Below, in pieces: positions 4,421 to 29,877 of a stretch of DNA of 32,201 nt. The stretch is from positions 1 through 32,201 of the IMG/VR virus record IMGVR_UViG_3300022188_000005, one strand, 5' to 3'. The position numbers and the translations under genes are program-made. The notes below the pieces were generated by a model. That model searched no databases and was not told where the DNA came from. It worked only from the letters and a program-made list of their open reading frames with translations. The stretch's first letter is position 1, and each line of letters starts with the position of its first letter. Origin of the DNA: a virus.

Positions 4421-6283
4421 ATGGGTAAGACTAAAATAGTACAAAATTCAATGGTTTCAGGTGTTATGTCAGAAACAGCTTTTGGTAGAACAGATATTAG
4501 TAGGTTTTTTAATTCAGTTGCCGAGGGCACAAACGTGTCTGTTCAGACAACTGGTGGATTATTTAAAAGACCAGGATTTGAGTTTATTGATTCTACTGAT
4601 GTATTAGTAGAAAAAGCTGAAAAGTATCCACAAAGTAATAGAATGATTGACTTCGTGTTTAATACTGAACAAAAGTATCTTTTTATATTAAGATATGGTG
4701 CTATAGATATTTATCATGTTCCGGATAGAGCGGATTCTCTTAATCCAGTAGGTAGACCATTTGCGACTGTTGCCACTACTATGAATTCTAATACTCTTAA
4801 AGAGATTTCATTCATTCAAAGAGGTGATACAACAATCTTATTCCATACTGATTGGAATCCAAAGGTTATATTAAGAGCAGGTTATGAAGACTTTATTGTT
4901 GGTGATTTAAATATTATTTCTCCAAAAGATAGTTCTGGTGATGATTATTGGTCTGATATATTAGGTTGGCCTTCATATGGTACTTTCTTTCAAGGTAGAA
5001 TGTATTGTGCAGCATCTAAATCATTCCCATTAACAGTATGGGGTAGTAAATCACAAGATTACTTTGATTTCTATATTGACCCTGCTCAAGCATCTGCTGA
5101 TGGTTCTCCAATATTAGATACCATTGATAGTGATAAGATTAATGCTATTACAGGTATATATAGTGGTAGAAATCTACAAGTATTCACTACTGGTGCTGAA
5201 TTTGTAAATCTTGCTGAGGTTATTACACCTACTAACTCTATTTGGAGAATACAGACAAGATATGGTAGTCACCATAATGCTCCTTTAGAGTCATTAGATG
5301 GTTCTACATTCTTTTGTGATAGAAACTCAGCAGTTAGAGAATTTGTATATGATTATAACCAAGATGCTAATATTTCAAACGATTTAACTACTTTATCGAG
5401 TCAGTTATTTAGCAATCCATTTAGATTGGATGTTGTAAAATCAGCTAAGTCAACACTGGGTAGATATACCTATATTTTAAACGACGATGGGACGATTGCG
5501 GTTCTTAACTTTAATAAGGCAGAGAGTATCATTGCTTGGGTTAAATTTGAACATGCTCAAGGTCCGATTATTGAAATATGTGCTGTTGATAATGAATTAT
5601 ATATATTAGTTAATACAGGTGTTGAAATTACATTAGAAAGATTGGATTTATCTGAGAATATTACATATTTAGATAACCATACATATGAGATTGGGACTAA
5701 GTATTCTGCTGGTTGTGGAGAACTTAATATTACATGTGATGAAACTATCGGTGGTATCTCTGGAACAGCTTATAAGGTTGATGGTATATGGTGTCCTTCT
5801 TGTCCTATATTTAATGATGAAAATCATGCGGTTACAACAACTATTACAGGTTTAGAAAGATTTAATGGTATGGAAGTATCATATCTATTAGATGGTGTTT
5901 ACCAAGGTGAAGTATTAATTACTAATGGTGAATTGACTATTGGTAGAGAGTTTACATTAGTTGAAATAGGTTTAAAATTTAATTCAAAAATGAAAACTAT
6001 GCCTGCTTCTTCTCCTGACTTTGATATGGAATTAGCATACAAAAGAATTATTAAGATAAAGTTTTACTTATATGAATCAAGTGGTTTTTACTTAAATGGT
6101 GATTTTATTCCAAGTACTCACTTTGATATTGATACATATGATACAAGATTACCTACTAAAACAGGAACTTATGAATATTGGGCTTTAGGTTGGGATGAGA
6201 TTATGCAATTTGAAATTACATCAGATGACCCATTGGGCTTTAATGTATTGAAGTTTGAAACAACTTTAGATGTTACTGAATAA
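4421..6283 (+). CDS. Tail tubular protein B (nozzle, T7 gp12-like)
   Basis: A 620-residue beta-rich protein. Its N-terminus (QNSMVSGVMSETAFGRTDISRF followed by TTGGLFKRPGFEFI) is the typical opening of podovirus nozzle proteins. Residues about 200-215 (FFQGRMYCAAS) and the QTRYGSHHNAPLESLDG region also fit. It forms the hexameric nozzle below the adaptor ring, closes the tail before infection, and anchors fibres together with gp11. It is shorter than T7 gp12 (794 residues) but within the range of related phages. AAGGAG lies 6 bases before the ATG. Confidence 0.85.
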   Translation: MGKTKIVQNSMVSGVMSETAFGRTDISRFFNSVAEGTNVSVQTTGGLFKRPGFEFIDSTDVLVEKAEKYPQSNRMIDFVFNTEQKYLFILRYGAIDIYHVPDRADSLNPVGRPFATVATTMNSNTLKEISFIQRGDTTILFHTDWNPKVILRAGYEDFIVGDLNIISPKDSSGDDYWSDILGWPSYGTFFQGRMYCAASKSFPLTVWGSKSQDYFDFYIDPAQASADGSPILDTIDSDKINAITGIYSGRNLQVFTTGAEFVNLAEVITPTNSIWRIQTRYGSHHNAPLESLDGSTFFCDRNSAVREFVYDYNQDANISNDLTTLSSQLFSNPFRLDVVKSAKSTLGRYTYILNDDGTIAVLNFNKAESIIAWVKFEHAQGPIIEICAVDNELYILVNTGVEITLERLDLSENITYLDNHTYEIGTKYSAGCGELNITCDETIGGISGTAYKVDGIWCPSCPIFNDENHAVTTTITGLERFNGMEVSYLLDGVYQGEVLITNGELTIGREFTLVEIGLKFNSKMKTMPASSPDFDMELAYKRIIKIKFYLYESSGFYLNGDFIPSTHFDIDTYDTRLPTKTGTYEYWALGWDEIMQFEITSDDPLGFNVLKFETTLDVTE

Positions 6284-6298
6284 CTTTAACCAAAATAG

Positions 6299-6306
6299 TA
6301 TAAATA
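6299..6306 (+). promoter_or_regulatory. TATAAATA box upstream of internal virion genes
   Basis: An exact TATAAATA followed by AATA lies 34 bp before the 6333 start, in a 49-bp gap. Confidence 0.5.
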
Positions 6307-6332
6307 AATAAAACAAAGATAAGGAATAGATT

Positions 6333-6968
6333 ATGGCAGTATTAATAGCAGCAGTTGTTATTGGAGCAGCAGTAGGGATTATGGGTAATAACTCTGCCGC
6401 TGCCGCTCAACAAGATGCGATAAACAGACAAGCATATGCTGATAGAATAGCAATGATTGATAAGAAAGAAAATATAGAGTTTGCAAGAGAGTTTAATGAT
6501 AAGCTCCAAGAATCAGATGAACTCCAAGCAGATATAAACTTTGCTGATGATTATGCAAGAAGATTAGAGAATTATAACTTAATTTATGATAATCAAAATA
6601 TATCATTAGGTTATCAAGGTAGAACAGTAGAAAGTATTGAAAATGTAAGAGCGGCAGATGAAGCGGCATGGGAATATGATAATAAGTGGGCTCAAATTCA
6701 ATTAGATACTAATAAAGCTATGATGAATGTAACATATGCTCAGAAAACATTAGAAGCAGTTAATAGTATATCATCTATTAATTCTGGTTTATCAGCATTA
6801 GCATCATCTCAAGAAGCAGGTATTCAAGCATCTCAAACAGCCAATATGTGGTCTAATATTGGAACAGTAACAAGTTCAGCTACAATGATGGCAAGTTATA
6901 CTACACCGAGAAGAACTCAACAAACTCAACAAACAAGCTTTATGACAAGCCAAAGTAAGGAAGTATAA
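6333..6968 (+). CDS. Internal virion protein, gp14-like
   Basis: A 211-residue protein. A hydrophobic N-terminal segment (VLIAAVVIGAAVGIMG, residues 3-18) is followed by a long Ala/Gln-rich helix with coiled-coil character (about 25-150) and a polar Gln/Thr tail. This matches the architecture of T7 gp14-type ejection proteins, which leave the capsid first and form a pore in the outer membrane. Position directly after the nozzle gene agrees. Its stop overlaps the next start (TAATG). Confidence 0.7.
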   Translation: MAVLIAAVVIGAAVGIMGNNSAAAAQQDAINRQAYADRIAMIDKKENIEFAREFNDKLQESDELQADINFADDYARRLENYNLIYDNQNISLGYQGRTVESIENVRAADEAAWEYDNKWAQIQLDTNKAMMNVTYAQKTLEAVNSISSINSGLSALASSQEAGIQASQTANMWSNIGTVTSSATMMASYTTPRRTQQTQQTSFMTSQSKEV

Positions 6969-9394
6969 TGAAAATGAATACATATGATAAGTCTATACCT
7001 AAAGCAAAGGTTGTTCAAAACAAAATGCCGTCTGCTGTAACAGGTGAAACCAAGTATGACGGATTAGCTGCAGGATTTCAGAAGCAACAAGCAGCATTTG
7101 AAGCACAAGAAGGTAAAGCTATACAAGCTGGTATGAATAAGATAGGTAATACTATTACACAGATTGCTGGTGAAGAACTTAAAGATAATGCTATTCAAAC
7201 TGGTAAAGAGAATGCTCAATTAGATTTCGCTGAAATTCAAAAGTTAAAGAAAACAAGAGATGAAGCAGTTCAAGGTATGTACCATATTGAAGATAAAGAA
7301 AGCACAGAGTTCGCTTTACTTAAAGACCAAACATTTAAGATAGATACAAGAATGAAACAACTTCTTGAAAAAGGTTCAAGGTTTAATGTATCTGAAAGAG
7401 TAAGAAGTGATGAGTTAAATGAGATTTATGTTAGTCAAGTAAGTTTAGATAGTAAAGCTACTATTAATACATTAGCTAATACATTTAGAAACAATCCGGA
7501 AAACTTTGAAAAAGAAGCTAATAAGTTATTGGCACAAGCTGATGCTGTACCTCAACAATTTAGAGAAACTATTAAGGCTAAAATCACAACTGATATTGCT
7601 AATAACAAAAGTAGAATTACAGAGAATGTTAAGAAGAAACACTTAGAAACATTAGGTGCTACAAGAAATCAATCTTTAACTGTATTAACTAATGAAGTTA
7701 CTCAATTAGCAAGAGATGGTAAAGCAACTGTTGGAACTATTGACGAGATTAATAGTATCATGATGAAGCAACTTAATGATGAGATTATTACACCAGACCA
7801 ATACAATAAGACTATGAACTATATTAATAAGAATGTAGTTAAACAAAAAGTAATGGGTAGAGCTGATAGTATATCTGAAAGCACACTAACTGATACACAA
7901 AAGGTTAAAGCTTTATTGAAGAATGCTTCTGAATTTAACGATGCTTCACAACCTTTAATCAATCAAGATGAAAAGTCTATTATATATAATGATTTAGTTA
8001 GAAGAGCAGGTTTATATGAAACTAAGGTTAAAACTCAAATTGCTTCACAGAATAAGATAGATGCTAAGAAACTTGGTAAGATTGTAGCAAGAGCTAAAAG
8101 TGGTGGAAGTTTAGGTAAAACTGATATTGCAGAAGCTAAATCTATTGCCTTAAAATTAGGTAGAACAGATGAATTAAACGGTGCTTTAGTAATATTAGAT
8201 AATGTAAATAGATTTCAAGCAAGTACTCCTGGTTCTCAAAAGAATTATCTTACTATGTATGCACAAGCTATTGAAGTAGCAGATGCTAATGGTCAGTCTA
8301 CAATGGAAATGAGAGCAGTTTATGATATATTAGAGAAACAAGGTCTAAAGAATGCAGAAGATATTAAAAATGACCCTATTGGTTATACTATGGAAAACCC
8401 ACAAAAATTTGGTGGAACTTCATATCAACCTAAATCATTAGACCAAGCTAATCAGTTAATTGAAACTGATGAAAAAGGAAATGTATCTTATGCTAAATAC
8501 AGTTCAGCAGTTGCTGACGAGTTAAGTTCAAGGTTTGATAATAAAGATAATTTCTTACAACATGTAGGTAACTTCGCAGTATTAAGTCCGACAGAAGTAT
8601 CTAATCTTAATAGAAAATATACAGAGATGTCAGTGGCTGATAAGGGCTTATTCTTAAAGAGTTTGAACGGTGCTATTGGTGCTTCTCAATCTAATGAGGT
8701 ATTCAGTCAAATGTGGGCAGATAAACCAGATAGTTCTTCTATTGCGGGTATGTTCTATAACAAGGGTAGTAAAGGTGCTACTGTTGCTGATGATATTCTA
8801 TTAGGTCAATCGTTAAGATTACAAGGTGAAGTTAAATTAGATGCGACACAAAAGACTGAATTGAAAGATACGATTTATGCTAAGATGGCAGCAAGTACAT
8901 ACCTTATTGACCCTAAGCACTTGAACATGTATTCACAAGCTATTTCAGACCATTACTTAGGTAATAACATTCAAGCTAATACATTAGATACTGGTTCAAT
9001 ACAAGATTCTTTTGAGGAAATTACTAATGGTGTTATTGAATATAATGATAAACCGTTACTTGCTCCTGAAAGAGGTAAAGACGATGGTGATATTAAAGAT
9101 TGGATGAAATATATGGGTTCAAACAATATGGCTTTAGAAACACAATACGGCGATACTCCACCAGAGGGTTATTCATCATGGAGAAGCTTCAAAGAAGATA
9201 TGTCAAATGTAGAAGGTGATGTATGGGGTATGGGTGCTTTTGATGTTAAAACTATTGGTGAAAGTAAATATGTTATGATGAAAGACGGTGGAGTTGTTAA
9301 GCACAATGGTCAACCAATGGTTTTTGATTGGTTCAAAGAAAACAAATTAGATGACAGAGGAAATAAGATTCCTTGGTATCAAGGACAAGAATAA
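6968..9394 (+). CDS. Internal virion protein, gp15-like
   Basis: An 808-residue, largely helical, polar protein without signal peptide or clear membrane segments. Size and position (after gp14-like, before further large internal proteins) match T7 gp15, which forms part of the DNA-ejection conduit across the periplasm. I see no lysozyme or transglycosylase motif. The start has AAGGAAG upstream and overlaps the previous stop; the end overlaps the next start (TAATG at 9392-9396), suggesting coupled translation of an ejection-protein set in fixed ratio. Confidence 0.65.
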   Translation: MKMNTYDKSIPKAKVVQNKMPSAVTGETKYDGLAAGFQKQQAAFEAQEGKAIQAGMNKIGNTITQIAGEELKDNAIQTGKENAQLDFAEIQKLKKTRDEAVQGMYHIEDKESTEFALLKDQTFKIDTRMKQLLEKGSRFNVSERVRSDELNEIYVSQVSLDSKATINTLANTFRNNPENFEKEANKLLAQADAVPQQFRETIKAKITTDIANNKSRITENVKKKHLETLGATRNQSLTVLTNEVTQLARDGKATVGTIDEINSIMMKQLNDEIITPDQYNKTMNYINKNVVKQKVMGRADSISESTLTDTQKVKALLKNASEFNDASQPLINQDEKSIIYNDLVRRAGLYETKVKTQIASQNKIDAKKLGKIVARAKSGGSLGKTDIAEAKSIALKLGRTDELNGALVILDNVNRFQASTPGSQKNYLTMYAQAIEVADANGQSTMEMRAVYDILEKQGLKNAEDIKNDPIGYTMENPQKFGGTSYQPKSLDQANQLIETDEKGNVSYAKYSSAVADELSSRFDNKDNFLQHVGNFAVLSPTEVSNLNRKYTEMSVADKGLFLKSLNGAIGASQSNEVFSQMWADKPDSSSIAGMFYNKGSKGATVADDILLGQSLRLQGEVKLDATQKTELKDTIYAKMAASTYLIDPKHLNMYSQAISDHYLGNNIQANTLDTGSIQDSFEEITNGVIEYNDKPLLAPERGKDDGDIKDWMKYMGSNNMALETQYGDTPPEGYSSWRSFKEDMSNVEGDVWGMGAFDVKTIGESKYVMMKDGGVVKHNGQPMVFDWFKENKLDDRGNKIPWYQGQE

Positions 9395-12362: not shown

Positions 12363-12598
12363 ACACCAGAGTTCTTCTTTAATAGTATTTGTCGTTCCGC
12401 TCGTGTCATTGTAGTGAGTAAAGGTCGTTCATTTCTTCGCATTGACATAAAGTAGTGGAAAGCATTCTTCTCCAACCACTCATGAAACTCGTCATTGATA
12501 TAGGCTTCATTACCCAACTGTATTAAGAAATCTTCACTCTCATACTCTAACTCTATTAACTGTTTATATAACTCTACTTTTGTTTCTTCTGTTTTCAT
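12359..12598 (-). CDS. Hypothetical protein at the end of the helicase-primase operon
   Basis: A 79-residue charged helical protein (ELYKQLIELEYESEDFLIQLGNEAYINDEFHEW, then FMSMRRNERPLL..RAERQILLKK). No family recognised. Its ATG overlaps the primase stop (TAATG), so it is translationally coupled to the primase and may belong to the same replication complex. Its stop lies directly beside the downstream promoter module B. Confidence 0.6.
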   Translation of the reverse strand: MKTEETKVELYKQLIELEYESEDFLIQLGNEAYINDEFHEWLEKNAFHYFMSMRRNERPLLTTMTRAERQILLKKNSGV

Positions 12599-13461
12599 TA
12601 TTTCAATCCTTGATATTTGTTTTCTAAATCGTCTTTATCACTATATTCACCGTCTAAATTAAGATACATTACACTGTCTGCAGCTTCACTTGCTGTTTGA
12701 CCTTTCCATTTACAGTATCCTAATAGTTTATACACAGCGGAATAGTTCTCACCTGTTCCACAGTCAGAAGCTAACTCTCTAAACTTTCTATCAGACTGTA
12801 TTTGAGCCGAAGTAGGCACTTTAATGTTATGTTTTCTTCTATAAGCTTTTGTTTCTTCATCAGCTTTCTCTTGTCTCCATTTAGCCTTTTGTAACTTATG
12901 TTTAACTTTCATTATGAACTTATCGTAGAATGGTGCTAAATCTAACCAATCTGTTGCTTCTGATATGAATGCTTCTCTACCTTTAACAGCGATATAACCT
13001 CTCCCAGCTTCCATTGTGTTCTCATCTGCTTCTAACTCAAATTGTTCATTAAGTATCTTATAGAACTCTCTGTAATGACTTGCTTTCTCAAACGAAATAG
13101 GGTTCTTCAAAGGTATAAACACTCTGAATTTCTCTAACTCTGGTGTCCAAGAAGCAGTCTTTAAGCACATAATCTCGTATTGTTGACCCAATGGGCTGTC
13201 TAATACTTCATCAATAGTTTTACCATCATCAATATCAAACATTAATAGGTCAATAGTTAATAAGGCATTTTCTTTCTTTCTGTAATTGTCTTCCCAATAT
13301 ATAGGAGCATATACTACATTACTATACAGTTTAGCATACAGTTCGTCAAGAGTATTTACTTCTTGTCTTTTGAAGTTTGAACAACAGTCAAACATTGCTT
13401 GTGTTTTGTTTAACTTACCGTCTTTTTTTGTTGGTCTGTATTTGTGTGTGCTGATAATCAT
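12598..13461 (-). CDS. Primase of the archaeo-eukaryotic (AEP) type, putative
   Basis: A 287-residue protein. Residues 73-80 (LMFDIDDG) give the metal-binding DxD of AEP primases as D76 and D78. Residues 104-118 (SWTPELEKFRVFIPL) match the following block of phage and plasmid primases, in which a serine-his-thr usually precedes the Arg-hydrophobic-Pro-Leu strand; here the His position appears to be Trp105. TMEAGRGY near residue 150 and a Lys-rich helix (about 180-210) follow. The enzyme would lay primers, or short copies, for replication starting at the phage origin. Stop and start codons overlap the helicase upstream and the 79-residue gene downstream, so the three form a tight operon. No DNA polymerase accompanies it, so elongation presumably uses the host enzyme. 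Confidence 0.65.
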   Translation of the reverse strand: MIISTHKYRPTKKDGKLNKTQAMFDCCSNFKRQEVNTLDELYAKLYSNVVYAPIYWEDNYRKKENALLTIDLLMFDIDDGKTIDEVLDSPLGQQYEIMCLKTASWTPELEKFRVFIPLKNPISFEKASHYREFYKILNEQFELEADENTMEAGRGYIAVKGREAFISEATDWLDLAPFYDKFIMKVKHKLQKAKWRQEKADEETKAYRRKHNIKVPTSAQIQSDRKFRELASDCGTGENYSAVYKLLGYCKWKGQTASEAADSVMYLNLDGEYSDKDDLENKYQGLK

Positions 13462-15164
13462 TATTCCATACCGTCCATTTCTGCTTCGTCTGGTATGTAG
13501 TTGTTTCTCATGTCGTCTTTTGTTTTAGAGCTACTTAATATATTAGCTTTACTTACATATTTCTCAAAGTCTTTAATTTCTAAATAAGTTGTTCTTCCTT
13601 CTTTTGTTTCAAATAACTTCTTACCATTCTCTGAACAGTAATCTATTAATTCATCTATAAAGTTTTCTTTTTGTTTCTTATTAAATCTTGGTTTCTTAAT
13701 ACTGTACTTAAAGAAGTCAGTTTGTGTAACTTTATTATCAAGAAGTGCTTCAAACCCTTCCTGCACTTCACTTCCAAATAGTTTAGTTTCGTATTTAGTT
13801 TTATCAAGGTGATACATTGTGAATATTCTATAAGCTGTCTTAACAGTTTCAAGATTAATCTCTTTGCCGTTTGATTCTATTAAGTGTAAGTTTAATGCTA
13901 ACTTAACTACTTGTTCCAATACAACAATGAATGTTTCATCATTAGTTTCTTGTAATTTCTTTAAGAATACATTAGTTAATGTTATTAAGAACACTTGTGC
14001 TTCTTCTGTAAAGTCAACAACTCTTGTAAATTGTTGAGGTGTAAAGATAGAAGTAGTATAATCAATCTTATCTGCCATTTTAGTGTAGTAGTATTGGTGT
14101 TGAGAAGCAACATGGTTAAGAATAGTTTGTATTTCACCTAATTCTTCCGTATAATCAACATTTGTTTCAAAAGATACTTCCTGGTATCTGTATTCTGTGC
14201 TCATTGATATTAATAATCTTCTTCCAAGACCATTCTTAGCGAAATCAATAACTCTTTCTTTGTTGAAATCGTTCAGTTCCATAGCCGAGTGGAACGAGGC
14301 ACATATACCAGCAGATGAAGTTGTTGGACTTCTAAATTCTTTTGATTTAATAGTCTTTGAAATCTCCGCTCCGTGATAATATGTATCTTTAATTCGTTCA
14401 ATAAGCTCACCACTTGATTTACTATTGATAATTGTATCAAAAAACTCACCACTTCTAACAGTCATTGCTCCAAAATTAACTACATTCATATCTAAGTGTG
14501 TAGAGTGGAATCCCTCTGCTGTTGAAGAAGCCATATTGAATGATTCAGTAGGCATTGATGGTATGTAATGTTGGTATTCTTCTTCACCATCTTCAAGTGC
14601 TGTTGCTAATTTAACTCTTTCGTCAAATGATTTGTATATCTCTTTTGTGAATATATCATTGGATATAGTAGCTTTACCGAAACAGTCGTCTATAACATTC
14701 TTACTCATATCTTTACCATACCCACTTTTTAATATAACAAGTGAGAATAGATTAGGAGTGATAACCTTATTCTGATAGTTAACACCAATTCTAAACTTTG
14801 AGTTGAATTGGCTATATTTGCTTATAATATTCATAAGGATAGAAGAAGTAGGTATTAAAGAAGTATTATTCTCTGTATATGCTACTAATTGCTCTGTAAT
14901 TGGAAGTTTAGCTACTATATCAGTAAGACTTGCTTCTGTATCTGTTACTGTATCAATGTATGTAGCATAAGTCTTACTTAATGCTTTCTTCTCATCTAAT
15001 GTTAATACTGATGTGGGCTTATGTTTAGCAACTTCTGGTGTTTTAACTTCTTTCTTTAATAGATCTTTACCATTAAGTCTTGTGTTCTTTGCTGGTGCAA
15101 ATGCTTCGTTTGTTTTGTCTGCTTTGTGAGGGCTTCTGTTACCCATTAAATTGATTCTTGCCAT
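13461..15164 (-). CDS. DUF3987-like replicative helicase/ATPase, putative
   Basis: A 567-residue protein. Residues 1-60 are basic and probably disordered. The ATPase core begins near residue 130: LVILKSGYGKD is a P-loop-like sequence with Gly-Tyr-Gly-Lys but Asp where Ser/Thr is usual. It is followed by a STAEGF block, VRSGEFFDTIINS, and FAKNGLGRRLLISM, which has the order of DUF3987-type proteins (a Glu-containing Walker B-like strand, then an Arg-finger-like ARF/GRR segment). These proteins pair with primases in many phages and plasmids and are regarded as helicases. It is the first gene of the operon, behind a 150-base structured leader. No Shine-Dalgarno better than AAG is seen before its ATG. 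Confidence 0.6.
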   Translation of the reverse strand: MARINLMGNRSPHKADKTNEAFAPAKNTRLNGKDLLKKEVKTPEVAKHKPTSVLTLDEKKALSKTYATYIDTVTDTEASLTDIVAKLPITEQLVAYTENNTSLIPTSSILMNIISKYSQFNSKFRIGVNYQNKVITPNLFSLVILKSGYGKDMSKNVIDDCFGKATISNDIFTKEIYKSFDERVKLATALEDGEEEYQHYIPSMPTESFNMASSTAEGFHSTHLDMNVVNFGAMTVRSGEFFDTIINSKSSGELIERIKDTYYHGAEISKTIKSKEFRSPTTSSAGICASFHSAMELNDFNKERVIDFAKNGLGRRLLISMSTEYRYQEVSFETNVDYTEELGEIQTILNHVASQHQYYYTKMADKIDYTTSIFTPQQFTRVVDFTEEAQVFLITLTNVFLKKLQETNDETFIVVLEQVVKLALNLHLIESNGKEINLETVKTAYRIFTMYHLDKTKYETKLFGSEVQEGFEALLDNKVTQTDFFKYSIKKPRFNKKQKENFIDELIDYCSENGKKLFETKEGRTTYLEIKDFEKYVSKANILSSSKTKDDMRNNYIPDEAEMDGME

Positions 15165-15205
15165 AATTTATCTTGGTTTGTTAATTTTAAGTATTAGAGG
15201 GGTTG

Positions 15206-15299
15206 GCTACCAAACTCAGCCTCTCTGTTTATTAAACACTTAATGAGTTACCAGATTGCTCTGATAACCGTAGTTGAGTTTGGTAGCTCATTAAATGTT
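15206..15299 (-). promoter_or_regulatory. Structured RNA leader with mutually exclusive pairings, helicase operon
   Basis: On the minus-strand transcript, segment A1 (plus 15288-15299) and A2 (15275-15287) lie first, then a 9-bp hairpin with a GCAA (GNRA) tetraloop (15247-15268), then B (15235-15246) and C (15206-15218). A2 pairs with C over 13 perfect base pairs. A1 pairs with B over 12 bp with one G-U. An extended A1/A2 pairing with B reaches 19 positions (17 Watson-Crick) but breaks the hairpin and the A2-C helix. These helices cross or compete, so the leader can switch between folds or form a pseudoknot. It begins about 15 bases after the TATAAATA of module A and ends about 40 bases before the helicase start. 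Control of replication gene expression is an inference. Confidence 0.6.
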
Positions 15300-15304
15300 C
15301 GTCT

Positions 15305-15364
15305 TTCTTTATTTTATTTATACACATTATACAAAAAGTTATCATTTTTAAGAATAATTAATGA
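15305..15364 (-). promoter_or_regulatory. Early promoter module, copy A (helicase-primase operon)
   Basis: Minus strand: TTAATTATTC, A-rich stretch, TTTTTGTATAAT, 2 bases, GTATAAATAAAATAAAGAAA. TATAAT is at plus 15326-15331 and TATAAATA at 15315-15322. It is nearly the same as module B at 12300-12362, while the DNA outside the module differs. TATAAT would fit a host sigma-70 -10 element. Confidence 0.6.
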
Positions 15365-15518: not shown

Positions 15519-16304
15519 ATGAGAACAACAGACGACAATATTGATAGAACGGTTAAAAGGATTAAAAGCACTGGTGAAGTATTCACACCCAATTGGTTAA
15601 TAGAAGAAATGTTGGATACATTAGAAATAGATTGGACTAACCCACCACAAGATAAGACATTCCTTGACCCTACGTGTGGGAACGGTAACTTCCTCGTAGC
15701 GTTAGCGGAGAGAGGAATACCATTACATAACATATATGGTGTTGATTTAATGGAAGATAATGTAGCACTAACCAAACAGCGGTTAAAAGGGGGTAATATA
15801 TTGTGTAGAGATGCTATTACTTATGATTACAGCTTCGGTTGTACTAATGTATTAGATATAAGCATTGGAATGAAGTTTGATTTCGTAGTTTGTAACCCAC
15901 CATACCAAATGCCAATAGGTGATGGTAAAAAGACCAAGAGTATATGGGCAGGGCTTATAGCGAAGTTTTATACATTAGTTAAGGATAAAGGAATAATGAG
16001 TAGTATTCACCCTGGTGGTTGGAGATTTGTTGTGCCAAGGTCAAAGAAAGATATTAAAGCGGTAAGAGATATTTACAACAATAACAAGATATTATATATG
16101 GAGTTAAACTCATATAAAAAGGGTAAAGGTACATTTGGTGCTGAAACAGACTACGATGTAATAACCCTTATTAAAGAGGCATCTAATGGCGATTGTTTGG
16201 TTAAAATGGAAATAGACGGAATACAGCCCATGAACATAAAAGAAATGAATATGATTCCTACTGATATGTTGAGTATGTTTGAGAAGTTGAAATGGAGAAA
16301 ATAG
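15519..16304 (+). CDS. Adenine-N6 DNA methyltransferase, catalytic part
   Basis: A 261-residue S-adenosylmethionine-dependent DNA methylase. Motif X-like TGEVFTPNW is at residues 18-26, the cofactor-binding motif I DPTCGNGNF at 50-58, motif II YGVDL near 73-77, and the catalytic NPPY at 126-129. The order X, I, IV is that of gamma-class N6-adenine methylases. Later strands (SIHPGGWRFVVPRS, YDVITLIKEA) also fit. It ends where related single-chain phage enzymes continue into a target-recognition half; here that half appears as separate overlapping genes. It probably marks phage DNA against host restriction. No matching endonuclease is present. AAGGAG is 7 bases before the ATG. Confidence 0.88.
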   Translation: MRTTDDNIDRTVKRIKSTGEVFTPNWLIEEMLDTLEIDWTNPPQDKTFLDPTCGNGNFLVALAERGIPLHNIYGVDLMEDNVALTKQRLKGGNILCRDAITYDYSFGCTNVLDISIGMKFDFVVCNPPYQMPIGDGKKTKSIWAGLIAKFYTLVKDKGIMSSIHPGGWRFVVPRSKKDIKAVRDIYNNNKILYMELNSYKKGKGTFGAETDYDVITLIKEASNGDCLVKMEIDGIQPMNIKEMNMIPTDMLSMFEKLKWRK

Positions 16305-16729
16305 AGATAATGTATAGTAGAAGTGATTATGAAACAAGAGGTAATCACATGTCAATAGATAAAGATAATGAGTTTAAGTATCCAGTTGTATATGGTATGC
16401 CACTTAAAGGTGTTAAATTTGTGTATTCCACAAGAGATAATGGTATGTTCGGTGTTCCTAAACTCATTATAGCAAATGGTTCGTCGTATTCTTTACTGGA
16501 TTTAGATGGTGAATATGGGATGACACAATATAGTTTTGCTGTTGTCGACACACCAGAGAATCTAATACAAATACAAAAGGTTATAGAATCACCTTGGTTT
16601 AGAACATTAAAAAGTAACTTCTGTGGGTTAGGTGATTCTATCAATAAGAATGCTATTATTGATGCTCAAGGTAAAATGAGGAAGTTCATGAGTGAGTTCA
16701 GAAAGGACTTTTGGAAGGAGTTTATATGA
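16292..16729 (+). CDS. Detached methyltransferase C-terminal (specificity-like) protein, copy 1
   Basis: A 145-residue protein in the -1 frame relative to the methylase, overlapping it by 13 bp. The blocks YPVVYGMPLKGVKFVYSTRDN, FGVPKLIIANG, LDGEYGMTQYSFAV, NLIQIQKVIESPWFRTL and the end EFRKDFWKEF look like the C-terminal target-recognition half of site-specific DNA methylases, here a separate polypeptide. It is paralogous to the next gene. It probably works with the catalytic subunit. An AAAA run just before the methylase stop would also allow a -1 slip into this frame, so a fused minor product cannot be excluded. The assignment rests on recalled family pattern plus position. Confidence 0.6.
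   Translation: MEKIEIMYSRSDYETRGNHMSIDKDNEFKYPVVYGMPLKGVKFVYSTRDNGMFGVPKLIIANGSSYSLLDLDGEYGMTQYSFAVVDTPENLIQIQKVIESPWFRTLKSNFCGLGDSINKNAIIDAQGKMRKFMSEFRKDFWKEFI
16694..16722 (+). repeat. 29-bp identical block, copy 1
   Basis: Identical to 17131-17159 in the paralogous next gene. It encodes EFRKDFWKE and contains the AAGGAG ribosome site used by the next gene. Confidence 0.85.
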
Positions 16730-17244
16730 AGATAGAATGTATTGGAATTAATACACGATTGTATGATATAAGGTCTAAATATTGTAGTGAAGTGAAAGAC
16801 AGTAGCTTTATATACCCTTTTATAAAATCAATGTCCATAAAAGACGGAATTAATTTACAGTATTGTAGTAAAAATACAAGAGGGCATTATGGTGTTAAGA
16901 AGATAATTATAATGAGATGTTCTTCTAAGGTTATTATTGATAGCGAGGGCTTATACGGTATAGGCAATTATGGTATAGGATTGGTAGACACAGTAGATAA
17001 CCTTATACAAATGAAAAAGGTATTAGAAAGTGACGAGTTCAAAGAATTAACAACTAAATGGGTTGGTGGTAATGATGTAAGTAACAAGCATATATTAGAT
17101 GGATTGAACTTTACTTCAAAGATTATGTCTGAGTTCAGAAAGGACTTTTGGAAGGAGTTCTATACCGATGAGATGGAACAAGAATTAATCGCAGAAGGGG
17201 TTTTTGTAGAAAAAGGCGAGCTAATATACGCTAATATACGCTAA
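16726..17244 (+). CDS. Detached methyltransferase C-terminal (specificity-like) protein, copy 2
   Basis: A 172-residue paralogue of the preceding 145-residue protein. Shared blocks are HYGVKKIIIMRCSS, DSEGLYGIGNYGIGLVDT, NLIQMKKVLES and EFRKDFWKEF. It has about 25 extra C-terminal residues. The frame opens at a TTG (16711), but the ATG at 16726 is 5 bases after AAGGAG and overlaps the previous stop as ATGA, so it is preferred. Its last codons are the first iterons of the origin-like region, so gene and origin overlap. A possible reading is that two interchangeable recognition subunits give the methylase two target sites. Divergence outside the 29-bp block suggests an old duplication. Confidence 0.6.
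   Translation: MKIECIGINTRLYDIRSKYCSEVKDSSFIYPFIKSMSIKDGINLQYCSKNTRGHYGVKKIIIMRCSSKVIIDSEGLYGIGNYGIGLVDTVDNLIQMKKVLESDEFKELTTKWVGGNDVSNKHILDGLNFTSKIMSEFRKDFWKEFYTDEMEQELIAEGVFVEKGELIYANIR
17131..17159 (+). repeat. 29-bp identical block, copy 2
   Basis: Identical to 16694-16722. In this copy the embedded AAGGAG is followed only by an out-of-frame ATG (17168) with no usable gene, so the ribosome-site role is not retained. Confidence 0.85.
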
Positions 17245-17265
17245 TACACAAGCGCGTGTATTAGC
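17220..17265. repeat. Left iteron cluster
   Basis: GCTAATATAC occurs at 17220-17229 and 17230-17239, followed by the variant GCTAATACAC at 17240-17249. After the 6-base spacer AAGCGC comes its exact reverse complement GTGTATTAGC (17256-17265), making a 10-bp-arm palindrome. The unit length is 10 bp, one helical turn, as in protein-binding iterons. Confidence 0.85.
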
Positions 17266-17291
17266 TATCGCCTTATTAATAAGGAAAAAAG

Positions 17292-17411
17292 GGAGCTAAT
17301 ACACTAATACACATAATACACACCTCTCTATATATATTAACTGAATAAGATAATAATAGTATACTATATAATAATATATATATATAATATGTATATTAGT
17401 GTATTAGCTCC
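17292..17411. repeat. Central inverted repeat around an AT-rich core
   Basis: Arms 17292-17315 and 17388-17411 match in 23 of 24 positions as inverted repeats and each contains tandem CTAATACAC-type units (GCTAATACAC at 17295, overlapping degenerate units at 17304 and 17313; mirrored at 17391 and 17399). The 72-base spacer is nearly all A/T, with a 12-bp palindrome ATAGTATACTAT at 17356-17367. The core would melt easily, as expected of a DNA unwinding element. Confidence 0.85.
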
Positions 17412-17475
17412 TATTATTTTTTCAGAAGTCCCTATTCATGGTAGTTTGAAGTATGTTTGCTAAAACACAAGGTCC

Positions 17476-17515
17476 GTATATTAGCGTATATTAGCGTATA
17501 TTAGCGATTATTAGC
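17476..17515. repeat. Right iteron cluster
   Basis: GTATATTAGC occurs three times without gaps (17476, 17486, 17496), followed by the variant GATTATTAGC (17506-17515). These are the exact reverse complement of the left GCTAATATAC units, so the two arrays face each other across the AT-rich core. Confidence 0.88.
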
Positions 17516-17581
17516 GACCGTAGGGAGCATTGATAATAAGTTGTCAATTATTGTATTAATTTGGAATAAAACAATTATTGT

Positions 17582-17589
17582 CATAAATA
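17582..17589 (+). promoter_or_regulatory. CATAAATA box in the origin-like region
   Basis: CATAAATA lies 126 bp before the 17708 start, an unusually long leader for this genome. It is followed by two DnaA-box-like sequences. It could drive the small gene at 17708 or an origin-activating transcript. Confidence 0.35.
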
Positions 17590-17596
17590 AAAATGT

Positions 17597-17628
17597 GTGG
17601 ATATGTTTACTGTCATTTTCGTATCCAC
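17597..17628. other. DnaA-box-like inverted pair
   Basis: TGTGGATAT (17596-17604) differs at one position from a reverse-oriented DnaA box (TTATCCACA). TATCCAC at 17622-17628 faces it, forming a 7-bp inverted repeat with an 18-base spacer. Possible host DnaA contacts; low certainty in such short motifs. Confidence 0.35.
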
Positions 17629-17657
17629 TTATTCTCTCCGGAATATTTTTTTTACAT

Positions 17658-17675
17658 AGCTCACTTCGGTGAGCT
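17658..17675 (+). other. Stable UUCG hairpin in the leader of the 17708 gene
   Basis: AGCTCAC, loop TTCG, GTGAGCT give a perfect 7-bp stem with the extra-stable cUUCGg loop. No T-run follows on the plus strand (it precedes), so it is more likely a leader or RNA-stabilising structure than an intrinsic terminator. Confidence 0.5.
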
Positions 17676-17707
17676 TCAATAAGAAAACATCAATCAAAGG
17701 AATTAAC

Positions 17708-17974: not shown

Positions 17975-18562
17975 ATGACAAAATATATAGCAACCTACAA
18001 CAAGATTATATTCAAAGCAAAACTATCAAATAGATTCAAATCAACAGAACATTATTATGAAGCACATCATATATTACCAACAAGTTTAGGTGGATCAGAT
18101 GAGAAATTCAATAAGGTATTGTTAACAGCACGAGAACATTTCATTTGTCACATGTTATTATATTTCCATTACAGAAGTATTAACAATGTTGAAGCTACTC
18201 TATCAATGGCTCATGCTTTTCAAATGATGTCTAATAGAATGACAACAAACTCAAACACTTATGCTATTGCGAAGAAAGCTGCAAGTAAAGCAATGACTGG
18301 CACTAAACACAAGCAATCAACAAAGGATAAAATATCACAAGCACTTATGGGTACAGTATGTTCAGATTCAAAGAAAAAAGCCATTGGTGAGAAGAATTCC
18401 AAAACAGTTATTCAATACACAAAAAGTGGTATATTTATAAGGGAGTTTAATAGTGCTAATGAAGTGTCTAAATTACTTGGATTTAATAGAAGTAATATAT
18501 CACAAGTTTGTTTAGGATATAGAAAAACATCTAACGGTTATGTGTGGAAGTTTAAGATTTAA
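17975..18562 (+). CDS. HNH homing endonuclease, second copy type
   Basis: A 195-residue homing endonuclease related in architecture to that at 2100. HNH residues are visible as H31-H32, N46, H55 and H59 (context YEAHHILPTSLGGSDEK). A single NUMOD3-like segment (KHKQSTKDKISQALMG, near 108-123) is followed by a NUMOD1-like tail (VIQYTKSGIFIREFNSANEVSKLLGFNRSNISQVCLG) expected to hold the DNA target. It lies between the small gene at 17708 and the probable small terminase, next to the origin-like region. Unlike the first HNH gene it has a good ribosome site (AGGGGAAG). Confidence 0.88.
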   Translation: MTKYIATYNKIIFKAKLSNRFKSTEHYYEAHHILPTSLGGSDEKFNKVLLTAREHFICHMLLYFHYRSINNVEATLSMAHAFQMMSNRMTTNSNTYAIAKKAASKAMTGTKHKQSTKDKISQALMGTVCSDSKKKAIGEKNSKTVIQYTKSGIFIREFNSANEVSKLLGFNRSNISQVCLGYRKTSNGYVWKFKI

Positions 18563-18610: not shown

Positions 18611-19015
18611 GTGTCCAACAAACTTATAAACTGGATAGACTTCGAAAGTATAAGAAAAACTTATACCAAAACTCTTCCACAAGCATTAGAGCCGGATGAC
18701 TTCATTCAAGAATTTAAGTTCTATCTTTCCACAAATAAAAAATACAATATTTACGGTTTAGCAACTCATCTTGGAATGTCCAAACAAAGATTTACTTCTC
18801 AATATCTTAACTCAAAAGATGAAATAGTTAAATACCTTGCTCAATGGTCCGTGGATACAATCACAAATCATGCAATGTCCAACGAAGAAGATTATTCCAA
18901 AACTCTTAGATATATTATAGCACAGTCGGAAACCGGAAAAGCATTCATTGAACTGGATGACAAACTTATTGAAGCGAATGCTAACAAAGTAATTATCTTA
19001 CCTCCTAAAGATTAA
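18611..19015 (+). CDS. Probable terminase small subunit
   Basis: A 134-residue protein starting at GTG 7 bases after AAAGGAG. Residues about 45-70 (KYNIYGLATHLGMSKQRFTSQYL) form a helix-turn-helix of the kind seen in small terminase subunits, with a helical oligomerisation region after it and a short C-terminal tail (VIILPPKD) that could contact the large subunit. The small subunit recognises phage DNA and regulates cutting by the large subunit. The large subunit is 9 kb away on the other strand, which is unusual. Codon choice (several TCC, GGA and CTT codons) differs somewhat from the capsid region. It could instead be a transcription regulator. Confidence 0.5.
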   Translation: MSNKLINWIDFESIRKTYTKTLPQALEPDDFIQEFKFYLSTNKKYNIYGLATHLGMSKQRFTSQYLNSKDEIVKYLAQWSVDTITNHAMSNEEDYSKTLRYIIAQSETGKAFIELDDKLIEANANKVIILPPKD

Positions 19016-21863: not shown

Positions 21864-24368
21864 ATGGCTTTGAATACAAATTATGGTAAGGTGAGTTACA
21901 CGATTACCAATACATCGAAAGAATATACTTTCAACTTCAAAATATATGAAGAGAGTGATGTAAGAGTATATGTAAGAACACAAGGAGAAATTCCAAATGA
22001 TAATGCAGATATTCTTCAAACAAACGAATACACCGTTACAATTGATGGAGATAACGGTGGATTAATTGTTCTAAACGATGTTCCACCATTAAATGGTAAT
22101 ATAGTAATGTTAAGAGATTTACCACTTGATAGAGAGTTCAACTATACTCCAAACGGTGGAATATATTCACATGCTTTGAATGAAGACCAAGACTATCAAA
22201 CATATTTAGTACAAGACCAAAGAGTTTTTAGACATTCTTCATTATCTTTCGCTAAATCAGCATGGGGTGGAGACTTTGACCCAAAAGTTGATGAAGTTGT
22301 ACCAAATGGTTACTTAAAGATTAATGCGGATGGTTCAGGTATTTCAATGGACACAACTGTTAGTGAAAATGCTGCAATAGTTGCTGATAACATTGATAGT
22401 GTTAATACAGTTGCTGATGATATTAATAATGTTAATACAACTGCTACAAACATCTCAGATGTTAATAAAGTTGGTGGAGACATTGGAAATGTTAATACAG
22501 TTGCTGATAACATTGATAGTGTTAATACATGTGATAATAGTATAATTAAAATTAATACATGTTCTTTATATATTGATAATATTAATACAAATGCTAACAA
22601 TATTATTTCAATCAATTCAAATGCTAACAATATGGCTGATATTATTGATGTAAGTGATAATGAAGTAAACATTACAGCAGTTGCCAATAATAATACAGAT
22701 ATTACAACGATTGCTTCTATTGAAGATGATATTACTACAACAGCATCAATGGAAGTAGCAATTACAACAGTTAATGATAATGAAACAAATATTAATATAG
22801 TTTCAACTGATATTGATAATGTAAATCAAGTAGGAAACAATATTGATAATGTAATCGCTGCTGGTGATAATGAAACAAATATCAATACGGTTTCTACTAA
22901 TATTGTAGAAGTTGTTCATGTTTCTGATAATATGGCAACTGTTTCTGAAACTATGAATGGTATTGATGACTTTAATGGAACATATTACAGAAGTTTATCA
23001 CAAGCACCAACGATTGGAAGCCACCCAACTCTAACAGTAGGTGATATGTATTTCAATAACATTGATGATATGATGAAGGTTTATACAACTGATAGTGTAT
23101 GGCAAGATGTTTCTCCAACTGTTTCTAATATTGAGGGTGTTGGAACACCATATGAAATTGTTGTATTACCTTATGTTGCTACTGCTGGTCAAACAGTTTT
23201 TACTGCTCCTTCAACAGCAACAGATTTAGTAATCGTTAATATTAATGGTAAAACTTTATCAGAATCAGATTATACTTCTGATGGTTCAGATATTACATTA
23301 AATGTAGGTGCAACTTTAGATGATGATGTAATAGTACAGGTTATAACAACCACAACTGTTTACCATGAGATAATTTCAACAGATAGTCAAACAGTTTATA
23401 GTATTACATTCTCACCAACAGCATTTGTTAATATATTCCTTAATGGTAGATTATTAACTACTGATAATTATGTGCTTACAACTAATACAGTTACACTAAA
23501 TAGTGGAGCATCAATTGGTGATGTTTTAACCCTTACAGAAGTAGAGGTTTCAGACGATTCAAATAAAACTGAATATATTGCGACAGCGGCTCAAACTTCT
23601 TTTGAAGTAATATATACTATTGGAACGGATTTAGATGATGTTTTAAATGTTTACTTAGGTGGTAGATTATTACCAATTACTGATTATACAGCTACAAATG
23701 GAACAGAAATTGTTTTAACTGTTGGTGCTACATTAAATGATAATGTTGTAATTACTAAAATGGTTCCTGTTCCAGCACCAACAATTACTACATATGGAGT
23801 TTATAGTAAACCACAAGTAGATGAAATGTTAGAATTGAAAGCTGATAAAGCTGATACTTATATTAAATCAGAAGTATATAACAAAACTGAGATTGATTCT
23901 CAACCTATTAAAGGTATAGTTCAAATTGATAATGTATTATATGACACATACCAATTAAATACGATTACACCAACAACAAATGTAGGTATCATTGGTATGA
24001 ATTTATCAATTACACCAACTTATACAACAAGTAAATTTAAAATATATGTTAGGTTATCAGCTTTAGTATTAGAAGATACATCATATAACTTTGTATTAAA
24101 TATTACAAGAGATGGAGTAAGAGTTAATAATACTGGAACTGATGATAAAGGTTTAGCTTCATTTGGTGATGATACTAATGGTGCTCATACTATGACTACT
24201 GTTGAATTTACAACTCTTGATACACAAACAAATGTAGTTGGAACACCAATCATATATCAATTAACAATGAGAAGTAATGATGATGAAACAATTGATAGAA
24301 GTGTTTTCACAAATCAAGGTAATGGTTTAACAGGTGTTTCTGAAATTATTATAGAAGAAATCAAATAA
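21864..24368 (+). CDS. Tail fibre protein with T7 gp17-like N-terminus
   Basis: An 834-residue trimeric-looking fibre. Residues 1-150 match the T7 fibre N-terminal domain that docks to the tail (YTITNTSKEYTFNFKIYEE, MLRDLPLDREFNY, HALNEDQDYQTYLVQDQ). Residues about 170-365 are Asn/Ile/Val heptad-like repeats (VADNIDSVNTVADDINNVNT), a shaft. Near 375-415 is a short domain with PTLTVGDMYFNN. Residues about 435-640 hold three copies of a 55-65-residue beta unit (ATAGQTVF, NINGKTLSESDYT, ITLNVGATLDDDVIV). A coiled-coil KADKADTY segment precedes a C-terminal beta domain that probably binds receptor. The ATG follows AAGGAAAT. A terminator-like hairpin follows the gene. Confidence 0.85.
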   Translation: MALNTNYGKVSYTITNTSKEYTFNFKIYEESDVRVYVRTQGEIPNDNADILQTNEYTVTIDGDNGGLIVLNDVPPLNGNIVMLRDLPLDREFNYTPNGGIYSHALNEDQDYQTYLVQDQRVFRHSSLSFAKSAWGGDFDPKVDEVVPNGYLKINADGSGISMDTTVSENAAIVADNIDSVNTVADDINNVNTTATNISDVNKVGGDIGNVNTVADNIDSVNTCDNSIIKINTCSLYIDNINTNANNIISINSNANNMADIIDVSDNEVNITAVANNNTDITTIASIEDDITTTASMEVAITTVNDNETNINIVSTDIDNVNQVGNNIDNVIAAGDNETNINTVSTNIVEVVHVSDNMATVSETMNGIDDFNGTYYRSLSQAPTIGSHPTLTVGDMYFNNIDDMMKVYTTDSVWQDVSPTVSNIEGVGTPYEIVVLPYVATAGQTVFTAPSTATDLVIVNINGKTLSESDYTSDGSDITLNVGATLDDDVIVQVITTTTVYHEIISTDSQTVYSITFSPTAFVNIFLNGRLLTTDNYVLTTNTVTLNSGASIGDVLTLTEVEVSDDSNKTEYIATAAQTSFEVIYTIGTDLDDVLNVYLGGRLLPITDYTATNGTEIVLTVGATLNDNVVITKMVPVPAPTITTYGVYSKPQVDEMLELKADKADTYIKSEVYNKTEIDSQPIKGIVQIDNVLYDTYQLNTITPTTNVGIIGMNLSITPTYTTSKFKIYVRLSALVLEDTSYNFVLNITRDGVRVNNTGTDDKGLASFGDDTNGAHTMTTVEFTTLDTQTNVVGTPIIYQLTMRSNDDETIDRSVFTNQGNGLTGVSEIIIEEIK
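22379..22529 (+). repeat. Repeats in the fibre shaft coding region
   Basis: A 31-bp sequence is identical at 22379-22409 and 22499-22529, exactly 120 bp (40 codons) apart, inside a series of similar Asn-Thr-Val repeat units. Such repeats allow slippage or recombination that changes fibre length. Confidence 0.8.
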
Positions 24369-24450: not shown

Positions 24451-25704
24451 ATGAGTAAGACAAGAGAAATAGTAGATGGTAACATTTATCAAAAAGGAAC
24501 AAATGTTGGAACTAATAATAAGTTTCAAGATGGTTTAACTTCTAAAAACGGTGTAGTTATTGGAGCAGAATCAGGTAAATCATTAACAGATGGTGACGAA
24601 AATGTATTAATTGGATATGATAATGGAACACTTATCACAGAAGGTGGATATAATACATTTATTGGAACATATAATGGTTCATCTTCAGCTCAAATAGGTA
24701 ATAATATTGGTATTGGTGCTGCTAACATGACTTCAGCTACTGATGATTGTTTCTATAACATTTCAGTTGGACAAAATAACTTACAATCGTGCTCAACAGG
24801 AACAAGTAATATTACTATGGGTTATAATGCTGGTAAAAATATTACAACTGGTAGCTTAAATATATTAATTGGTGAAGCTTGTGGAGATGCATTTACAACA
24901 GGTGAGAAAAATGTTGGTATTGGTGCTGCTTTTAATCAAGTAAGTGGTGGTAATTCAAATGTAGCTATCGGTGATGGAACACATGGTGGATATAGCTCAT
25001 ATTCATCATATAATGTTTCAGTTGGTAAATCAGCAGCAGCAAACTTAAAGGGTGATAGTAATACAGCAATTGGTTGTTATGCTTTATTCTCTTTAGGTGA
25101 TTATGACCACAATACAGCAGTTGGTAGAGATGCTCTTAAATTGATGGTTGATGGTTCATCAAATGATGCTTCTACAAATGCAACAGGTATAGGTTATGAT
25201 GCTAGAGTTTCTGGTGATAATCAAGTTCAATTAGGTAATACAGCAACAACTACATATGTTTATGGAACTGTTCAAGATAGGTCAGATAATAGAGATAAAG
25301 CTGAAGTAAGAGATATTACATTAGGTTTAGATTTTATTAACTCTTTAAGACCTGTTGATTATAAATGGGATTTCAGAAGTGATTACCAAACATCAGAAGA
25401 AGTTCTTGTATCAGAAGCTTATGAAGAACAGGATAAAGGTGGAAAACTTATTAAACATGAGGCTGAATATAAAACAGTTATAAGTGCTAATGAGAAAGAT
25501 GGTTCTAAAGTTAGAAGTAGATTTCACCATGGTTTTATTGCTCAAGAAATTGGTGAAAACCCTGCTGAATTTGGTGGATACCAAGACCATGCCTTAAATG
25601 GTGGTTCTGAGATTCAATCTTTAGGTTATAATGAGTTTATTGCTCCTTTAGTTAAAGCTGTTCAAGAATTAACTGCAAGAGTTAAAGAATTAGAAGGAAA
25701 ATAG
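24451..25704 (+). CDS. Second tail fibre/spike with S74 intramolecular chaperone
   Basis: A 417-residue protein. Residues about 40-265 are short Gly/Asn/Ile repeats (NVLIGYDNG, NTFIGTYNG, NIGIGAANM, NVGIGAA, NVAIGDG) expected to wind into a trimeric beta-helix. From S278 the sequence SDNRDK begins a peptidase_S74 chaperone, with GLDFINSLRPVDYKWDF, HHGFIAQEIGEN and a C-terminal coiled coil (LVKAVQELTARVKELEG). In this family the chaperone drives trimer folding and then cuts itself off just before that serine, which would release about 140 residues. No tail-docking N-terminal domain is obvious, so it may bind the first fibre. AAGGAG precedes the ATG. Confidence 0.88.
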   Translation: MSKTREIVDGNIYQKGTNVGTNNKFQDGLTSKNGVVIGAESGKSLTDGDENVLIGYDNGTLITEGGYNTFIGTYNGSSSAQIGNNIGIGAANMTSATDDCFYNISVGQNNLQSCSTGTSNITMGYNAGKNITTGSLNILIGEACGDAFTTGEKNVGIGAAFNQVSGGNSNVAIGDGTHGGYSSYSSYNVSVGKSAAANLKGDSNTAIGCYALFSLGDYDHNTAVGRDALKLMVDGSSNDASTNATGIGYDARVSGDNQVQLGNTATTTYVYGTVQDRSDNRDKAEVRDITLGLDFINSLRPVDYKWDFRSDYQTSEEVLVSEAYEEQDKGGKLIKHEAEYKTVISANEKDGSKVRSRFHHGFIAQEIGENPAEFGGYQDHALNGGSEIQSLGYNEFIAPLVKAVQELTARVKELEGK

Positions 25705-25927: not shown

Positions 25928-26370
25928 TGGAAACTCAAGAATTTCACACAACTTGCCCACAGATTCCACAGATTAAACAGGATTTAATGGAATTAATGTT
26001 CTCAGAGAAGACTCAAGAGGTTTCTATCAAGTCATTACACAAAAGACAAGACAAGGCGGATGAAATGAGAGAAGAGTTATCTTCAAAGATGAGTGATTTA
26101 GTTATAATCGTTCATGATTTAGATATTAACTTTAAAAACCATATGGAGTGGGAAGAACAGATAACAGCTATGAATGAAGAAAACAAAAGAAAAAATAATG
26201 CTTTCATTAGATGGGTTGCGGGTTTTGTAATCTTAGGATTACTTTCTTTCACAGGGTATTCTCTTGGTATATTAGCCGATACAGAAAAGTTAGCAATCTC
26301 AAATGCTCAACAACTTGAAAATGTTGATGAAACATTGAAAGAAATAAAACAATTAATAATAAAACAATAA
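25927..26370 (+). CDS. Coiled-coil protein with one membrane segment, possible lysis or virion-membrane protein
   Basis: A 147-residue protein. Residues about 20-90 are charged helical coiled coil (KSLHKRQDKADEMREELSSK). Residues about 97-117 (WVAGFVILGLLSFTGYSLGIL) are a membrane helix. A second charged helix (QQLENVDETLKEIKQLIIKQ) follows. The layout recalls XhlA-like or spanin-like lysis proteins, and also membrane-anchored tail proteins. It is coupled to the preceding small hydrophobic gene. No endolysin lies nearby or is recognised anywhere in the genome, so a lysis role remains a guess. Confidence 0.5.
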   Translation: METQEFHTTCPQIPQIKQDLMELMFSEKTQEVSIKSLHKRQDKADEMREELSSKMSDLVIIVHDLDINFKNHMEWEEQITAMNEENKRKNNAFIRWVAGFVILGLLSFTGYSLGILADTEKLAISNAQQLENVDETLKEIKQLIIKQ

Positions 26371-29022: not shown

Positions 29023-29047
29023 AATATATTAAACACAAGGAAAAAAT

Positions 29048-29550: not shown

Positions 29551-29877
29551 ATGGGTGGAAAATCAAACTATTCAGGACCATCTGCAGCAGAAGTTACAGA
29601 TAGAAACACTGGTTTAGAAGATAAGTGGACTGAACAGAGAAATGTTGAAGAAGCACAAGCTGAAGCTTTTGATAAACAATTGGAACAAGAGTTTCTTTTG
29701 TTAGCTGAAGGTGATAAAGCAAGAGAAGTTCAAGATGAGTTATCTGAAAGAGAAGGTGCCGCTGGTGTATTAGCTAATGGTCAAGTAGGTTTCAAAAGAG
29801 ATGGTAAACCATCTAAAGAAGAATTAGTGTCATTATTGGCAGAAGAAGACGAAGACAATATACTGGGAGGTATGTAA
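29551..29877 (+). CDS. MGGK-type protein 1 (shared N-terminal motif)
   Basis: A 108-residue acidic helical protein. The N-terminus MGGKSNYSGPSAAEV is shared with the next two genes; the rest (EDKWTEQRNVEEAQAEAFDKQLEQEFLL, then an EELVSLLAEEDEDN tail) is unrelated or strongly diverged. Function unknown. Proteins starting MGGK/MGGG with a Ser/Pro stretch are common near podovirus portals, and I infer a virion or assembly role. The terminal LGGM codons double as the GGAGG ribosome site for the next gene. Confidence 0.65.
   Translation: MGGKSNYSGPSAAEVTDRNTGLEDKWTEQRNVEEAQAEAFDKQLEQEFLLLAEGDKAREVQDELSEREGAAGVLANGQVGFKRDGKPSKEELVSLLAEEDEDNILGGM

Follow-up and report, generated by a model that had tools for sequence, protein, structure and literature searches.

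In archaeal origins, ORB and mini-ORB elements of opposite polarity flank a DNA unwinding element (DUE) (PMC6742236). The herpes simplex virus origins OriS and OriL place 10-bp UL9 sites (Box I and Box II) on the flanks of an AT-rich core, and the protein that binds these sites is a helicase (PMC13137030). In SaPI and SCCmec elements, a self-loading helicase (Rep or Cch2), paired with a primase, binds iterons, and binding as two hexamers has been proposed (PMC7581432). The lambda origin and the origins of iteron plasmids carry one-sided arrays (PMC5043065). Here, we compare these systems with a repeat locus in a small phage that had not been described before.

The window, meaning the whole stretch of DNA analyzed (32,201 nucleotides; IMG/VR record IMGVR_UViG_3300022188_000005), is a metagenomic contig that appears to be a complete circular phage genome of 32,074 unique bases. 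The 127 bases that are identical at its start and end resemble an assembly overlap (the assembly k-mer). By its structural genes, the phage belongs to a broad group of small, podovirus-like marine phages, its capsid protein being ~40 to 50% identical to those of Methylophilales phage MEP301, 32-kb Vibrio phages, and numerous uncultured contigs. Among the fetched relatives, the closest (L098), with 73% identity in the capsid and 76% in the terminase, is a 12-kb structural fragment only. With the helicase, primase, terminase, and capsid as queries, the replication genes were absent from all fetched relatives, and the helicase was not found in 50 whole records searched (an empty result without a positive control). 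The gene set is of a virulent type, and no integrase was seen. The window also encodes what looks by inspection like a homing endonuclease (ORF 2100 to 2789), a second one besides that near the array, a large tail-fibre-like gene (21864 to 24368) with 30-bp (10-residue) repeats at 22379 to 22644, and a protein (24451 to 25704) with a terminal Peptidase_S74 intramolecular chaperone domain (E 4e-8), which is typical of phage tail spikes and fibres.

Nine exact copies of the decamer GCTAATAYAC lie within 17220 to 17505, accompanied by several near copies. The units run head-to-tail at the left and as reverse complements at the right, with an AT-rich core between them. The features of the locus are as follows.

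17220, 17230, 17240, and 17295, plus strand: exact decamers (GCTAATAYAC)
17256, 17399, 17476, 17486, and 17496, minus strand: exact decamers (GCTAATAYAC)
17303, 17312, and 17459, plus strand, and 17391 and 17506, minus strand: near-copy decamers
17220 to 17249, plus strand: left outer array, decamers GCTAATATAC, GCTAATATAC, and GCTAATACAC arranged head-to-tail at 10-bp steps
17240 to 17265, unstranded: opposed decamer pair, perfect palindrome GCTAATACAC-AAGCGC-GTGTATTAGC with a 6-nt spacer
17292 to 17317, plus strand: left inner arm, decamers at 17295 and 17303 and a degenerate unit at 17312, at 8- to 9-bp steps
17328 to 17399, unstranded: AT-rich core, candidate DNA unwinding element, 72 bp, ~90% A/T
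17356 to 17367, unstranded: 12-bp palindrome ATAGTATACTAT, centered at 17361.5, on the outer dyad
17386 to 17411, minus strand: right inner arm, decamers at 17391 and 17399
17476 to 17515, minus strand: right outer array, four reversed units at 10-bp steps: GCTAATATAC in three exact copies, plus the variant GCTAATAATC
17245 to 17707, unstranded: 463-bp intergenic gap, the largest in the genome

The outer arms (17220 to 17249 and 17476 to 17505) are 97% complementary over 30 nt, and the inner arms (17292 to 17317 and 17386 to 17411) match at 24 of 26 positions. The symmetry of the array is nevertheless approximate, because the outer dyad (17362.5) and the inner dyad (17351.5) are 11 bp apart, or about one helical turn. 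No mirrored tandem of a 9-mer arose in 200 order-3 Markov simulations of the window, and none of an 8-mer was present in 181 fetched loci (1.89 Mb). Mirrored decamer arrays had been reported in a preliminary description of this DNA, and these results bear that out. The same is true of the decamer palindrome with its 6-base spacer and of the overlap with the 3' end of a coding gene, as the left array reaches into the ORF at 16726 to 17244. The 10-bp stacking claimed there holds for the outer units, which are spaced by exactly 10 bp, but not for the inner units, which follow each other at 8 to 9 bp. Outside the array, the genome has two exact decamers, against 0.2 to 0.5 expected per genome; both (26267 to 26276 and 29765 to 29774) are on the minus strand within coding genes and are probably due to chance.

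The core is the least stable duplex in the genome at window sizes of 50, 72, 100, and 150 bp. It contains the longest uninterrupted A/T run of the genome (26 nt) and sits inside the largest intergenic gap. The 72-bp length and the central 12-bp palindrome agree with the preliminary description, whereas the wording "AT-only" was overstated for a sequence with 90% A/T.

The layout had been called new. Sites of opposite polarity that flank a DUE are, however, known from archaea (PMC6742236), as are 10-bp UL9 boxes in herpesviruses (PMC13137030), and the arrangement is unusual and rare for a phage rather than new in kind. Like archaeal origins, the array has sites of opposite polarity on the two sides of an AT-rich, candidate unwinding element, but the phage has 10-bp tandem arrays and no recognizable ORB, and no Orc1/Cdc6-like initiator appeared among the Pfam, NCBIfam, and PHROG matches of the replication-region proteins. 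It shares with OriS and OriL the 10-bp sites that flank an AT-rich center; it differs in its multiple tandem copies per side and has no known UL9-like protein, and the viruses are unrelated. Lambda and iteron plasmids likewise have repeated initiator sites that adjoin an AT-rich stretch, but the phage array is two-sided, with opposite polarity, and has no DnaA-box cluster. The resemblance to archaeal origins is one of layout and not of membership, and we do not assign the array to any of the other families either.

Searches for the decamer elsewhere returned no second mirrored array. An exact decamer dimer was not found in IMG/VR, and a looser pattern gave 19 matches, none of them a mirrored array, which is near a rough chance estimate. 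Bacterial genomes yielded nine one-sided matches, most of which belong to a dispersed repeat of a single Brocadiaceae assembly, and BLASTN of the array against phages and plasmids produced low-complexity AT matches only. The GTATATTAGC/GCTAATACAC tandems in the fetched loci L184 (3040 to 3079), L176, L177, L178, L181, and L182 are all one-sided; they come from a Bdellovibrionales contig and from the repeat dispersed in the Brocadiaceae assembly, and none is mirrored. A further locus (L160) has several TATTAG/AATTAG-type repeats at 5020 to 5175, directly downstream of a 917-aa primase-like gene (5174 to 7927, minus strand), an arrangement like that of a SaPI-style origin.

We then considered which proteins of the phage could act at the array. 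The operon immediately upstream (15519 to 17244) encodes an N6-adenine methyltransferase (15519 to 16304) and two paralogues. These genes beside the array, of 145 and 172 aa, are 43% identical to each other, and the first is similar to the C-terminal half of an NPPY-motif methyltransferase from a phage. The paralogues look like target-recognition pieces, and the methyltransferase seems to be divided between one catalytic part and two such pieces in tandem. We had considered the 145- and 172-aa genes as initiators and dropped them on account of this mutual paralogy and the resemblance of the first to the C-terminal part of NPPY-type methyltransferases; the genes nearest the array are therefore no longer obvious initiator candidates. 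On the other side, the leader of a 59-aa ORF contains a UUCG-loop hairpin (GCUCAC-UUCG-GUGAGC, 17657 to 17676, z -5.0), and a homing endonuclease gene (17975 to 18562; PHROG 655, E 3e-33) lies between the array and a possible small terminase. Three more genes bear on the function of the array.

12598 to 13461, minus strand: AEP-type primase, 287 aa, N4 gp43-like C-terminal module
13461 to 15164, minus strand: ATPase/helicase, 567 aa, N4 gp43-like N-terminal module, weak DUF3987 match
18611 to 19015, plus strand: possible small terminase, 134 aa, sub-threshold Pfam match to packaging protein gp3 (E 0.046)

For the 287-aa protein, the match is to primases of the N4 gp43 type (PHROG 2135, E 4e-14). 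The 567-aa protein has a sub-threshold Pfam match to DUF3987 (E 6e-4) and matches the N-terminal half of gp43-like proteins, with E 2e-5 for Alteromonas phage AD45-P1 and a weaker match for Vibrio phage PG11. In a joint alignment, the helicase and then the primase fall in order along the fused gp43-like proteins of these two phages, and the P-loop-like KSGYGKDMS of the window helicase aligns with GSGAGKDSS and ESGAGKGYS. Both AD45-P1 gp081 and the PG11 protein have a helicase-like N-terminal and an AEP C-terminal module, but as a single fused protein of 726 to 753 aa and not as two genes. On the basis of these alignments, 12598 to 15164 is an N4 gp43-like primase-helicase split into two overlapping genes. 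In mobile elements, DUF3987 ATPases that occur together with primases have been predicted to be helicases (PMC5862659). No DNA polymerase was recognized among the window proteins scanned (a subset of the window ORFs), whereas in PG11 a phage DNA polymerase gene adjoins that of the gp43-like primase. For lack of homologues, the AlphaFold model of the helicase (pLDDT 33) was too poor to reveal a DNA-binding domain. The stretch upstream of this operon (15165 to 15305, minus strand) is structured and leader-like, with a 13-bp perfect inverted repeat (15206 to 15218/15275 to 15287) and nested hairpins (RNA z of ~-4.5 on both strands). It had no Rfam match at the gathering score and could control the expression of the replication proteins.

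To our knowledge, no N4-type gp43 has been described as an iteron-binding initiator. The absence of a Rep-type initiator, noted in the preliminary description, is correct by name, but the phage encodes the split gp43-like pair, and in SaPIs and SCCmec this class of enzyme pair binds the iterons itself (PMC7581432). Like those elements, the phage has its own primase-helicase pair and an iteron region. Its helicase, however, is N4 gp43/DUF3987-like, without a match to DUF927 or to the D5/Primase_Cterm Rep family, and the array lies 2 kb from the primase-helicase operon instead of directly downstream of the helicase gene, whose start is at 15164 and whose transcription heads away from the array (17220). 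Among the phage proteins, the 567-aa helicase is the best candidate for the initiator.

Taken together, the array is probably the replication origin of the phage, a reading that we hold with moderate confidence. This reading is favored by the position of the phased tandem sites, on either side of the least stable duplex and within the largest intergenic gap, and by a phage-encoded primase and helicase in the absence of a recognized DNA polymerase. It is also favored by the mirrored phasing, which chance does not account for, by the distance of 2 kb to the primase-helicase operon, and by the archaeal, herpesvirus, and SaPI/SCCmec precedents. Two features of iteron origins are present, namely, phased, near-identical short repeats and an adjacent AT-rich unwinding element (the stability minimum at 17328 to 17399). 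Other indicators give no support. A minimum of GC skew had been suggested as a check on the origin, but the detrended cumulative minimum falls at 29,038, the skew tracks gene orientation, and flipping the minus-strand genes moves the minimum to 5,485. The 14 one-mismatch DnaA boxes in the genome, one of them near the array, are at about chance level and form no cluster. The probable origin in the preliminary description remains plausible and the best reading, without support from GC skew. The hairpins formed by the decamers count against an origin, and the fetched relatives, which lack the replication genes, are uninformative about conservation.

If the array is the origin, the opposed decamer arrays would be bound by a protein of the phage, for which the split N4 gp43-type helicase (13461 to 15164) or a partner of it is the likeliest choice, and two facing complexes would form. 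These complexes would melt the AT-rich core and load the helicase outward on both sides. Primers would come from the separately encoded AEP primase (12598 to 13461), and a host polymerase would presumably extend them. The most specific version, in which the split primase-helicase binds the arrays directly and loads two outward-facing helicases across the palindromic unwinding element for bidirectional replication, is a tentative proposal that we regard as doubtful.

Because the repeats oppose each other, the array also builds hairpins.

17213 to 17274, unstranded: left-array hairpin with flanking AAGGCGA/TCGCCTT, A-rich on the 5' side and T-rich on the 3' side, terminator-like
17284 to 17422, unstranded: long inner stem with A-tract and T-tract ends (A6 ... 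T6), on both strands

The first has a free energy of -28 kcal/mol and an RNA z of -6.1; the second has an RNA z of -7.4 on the plus strand and -7.1 on the minus strand. The region had no Rfam match at the gathering score. These hairpins may fit a terminator or insulator role, possibly alongside an origin. The locus could be a bidirectional structured terminator or insulator that ends the methyltransferase operon (15519 to 17244) and insulates the operon that follows; the repeats would then be either a side effect of hairpin formation or sites for a regulator. Consistent with this, the upstream ORF terminates within the first array, and pairing in the two A-/T-tract hairpins continues past the decamers (AAGGCGA/TCGCCTT and AAAAAAGGGA/TCC..TTTTTT, an A6/T6 pair). 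The stems are stable, but their loops are much longer than those of intrinsic terminators, and the terminator scan made no call there. The right outer array contributes no local hairpin (z -0.7), and a terminator needs neither tandem 10-bp phasing nor a 72-bp core that is the weakest in the genome. We consider this explanation unlikely; it could coexist with an origin.

Packaging offers another explanation, in which the array would be the initiation (pac) site for the small terminase encoded ~1.1 kb downstream. Some pac regions, such as that of SPP1, do carry opposed repeat sites. The 134-aa ORF has the sub-threshold gp3 match, and packaging is thought to be headful in a phage from the capsid-related Vibrio group (PMC10803314). 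The small-terminase call is weak, however: beyond gp3, the protein had no phage or structural match, and its AlphaFold model was too poor for use. Moreover, to have the least stable duplex of the genome at the center of the dyad is a trait of replication rather than of packaging, and we judge a pac site to be quite improbable.

Cooperative regulators and centromere-binding proteins also use unspaced 8- to 10-bp repeats in both orientations, but an array of operators or enhancers at which a repressor or activator of the phage acts, or a centromere of a partition-like kind, is just as improbable, given that no ParA/ParM-like ATPase or repressor was recognized in the replication-region scans, that the gene set is of a virulent type with no integrase seen, and that promoter-like sites occur at chance level.

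The split of the primase-helicase shows that an N4 gp43 protein can exist as two separate genes. If the array is the origin, it would provide a testable case of how replication starts in small phages that have an N4-type primase-helicase and no recognized DNA polymerase of their own. It would also be a phage example of an opposed-site architecture otherwise known in archaea and herpesviruses. Should direct loading by the gp43-type enzyme prove true, the array would be the first phage counterpart of the archaeal and herpesvirus opposed-site origins, and the enzyme would represent a new class of self-loading initiator.
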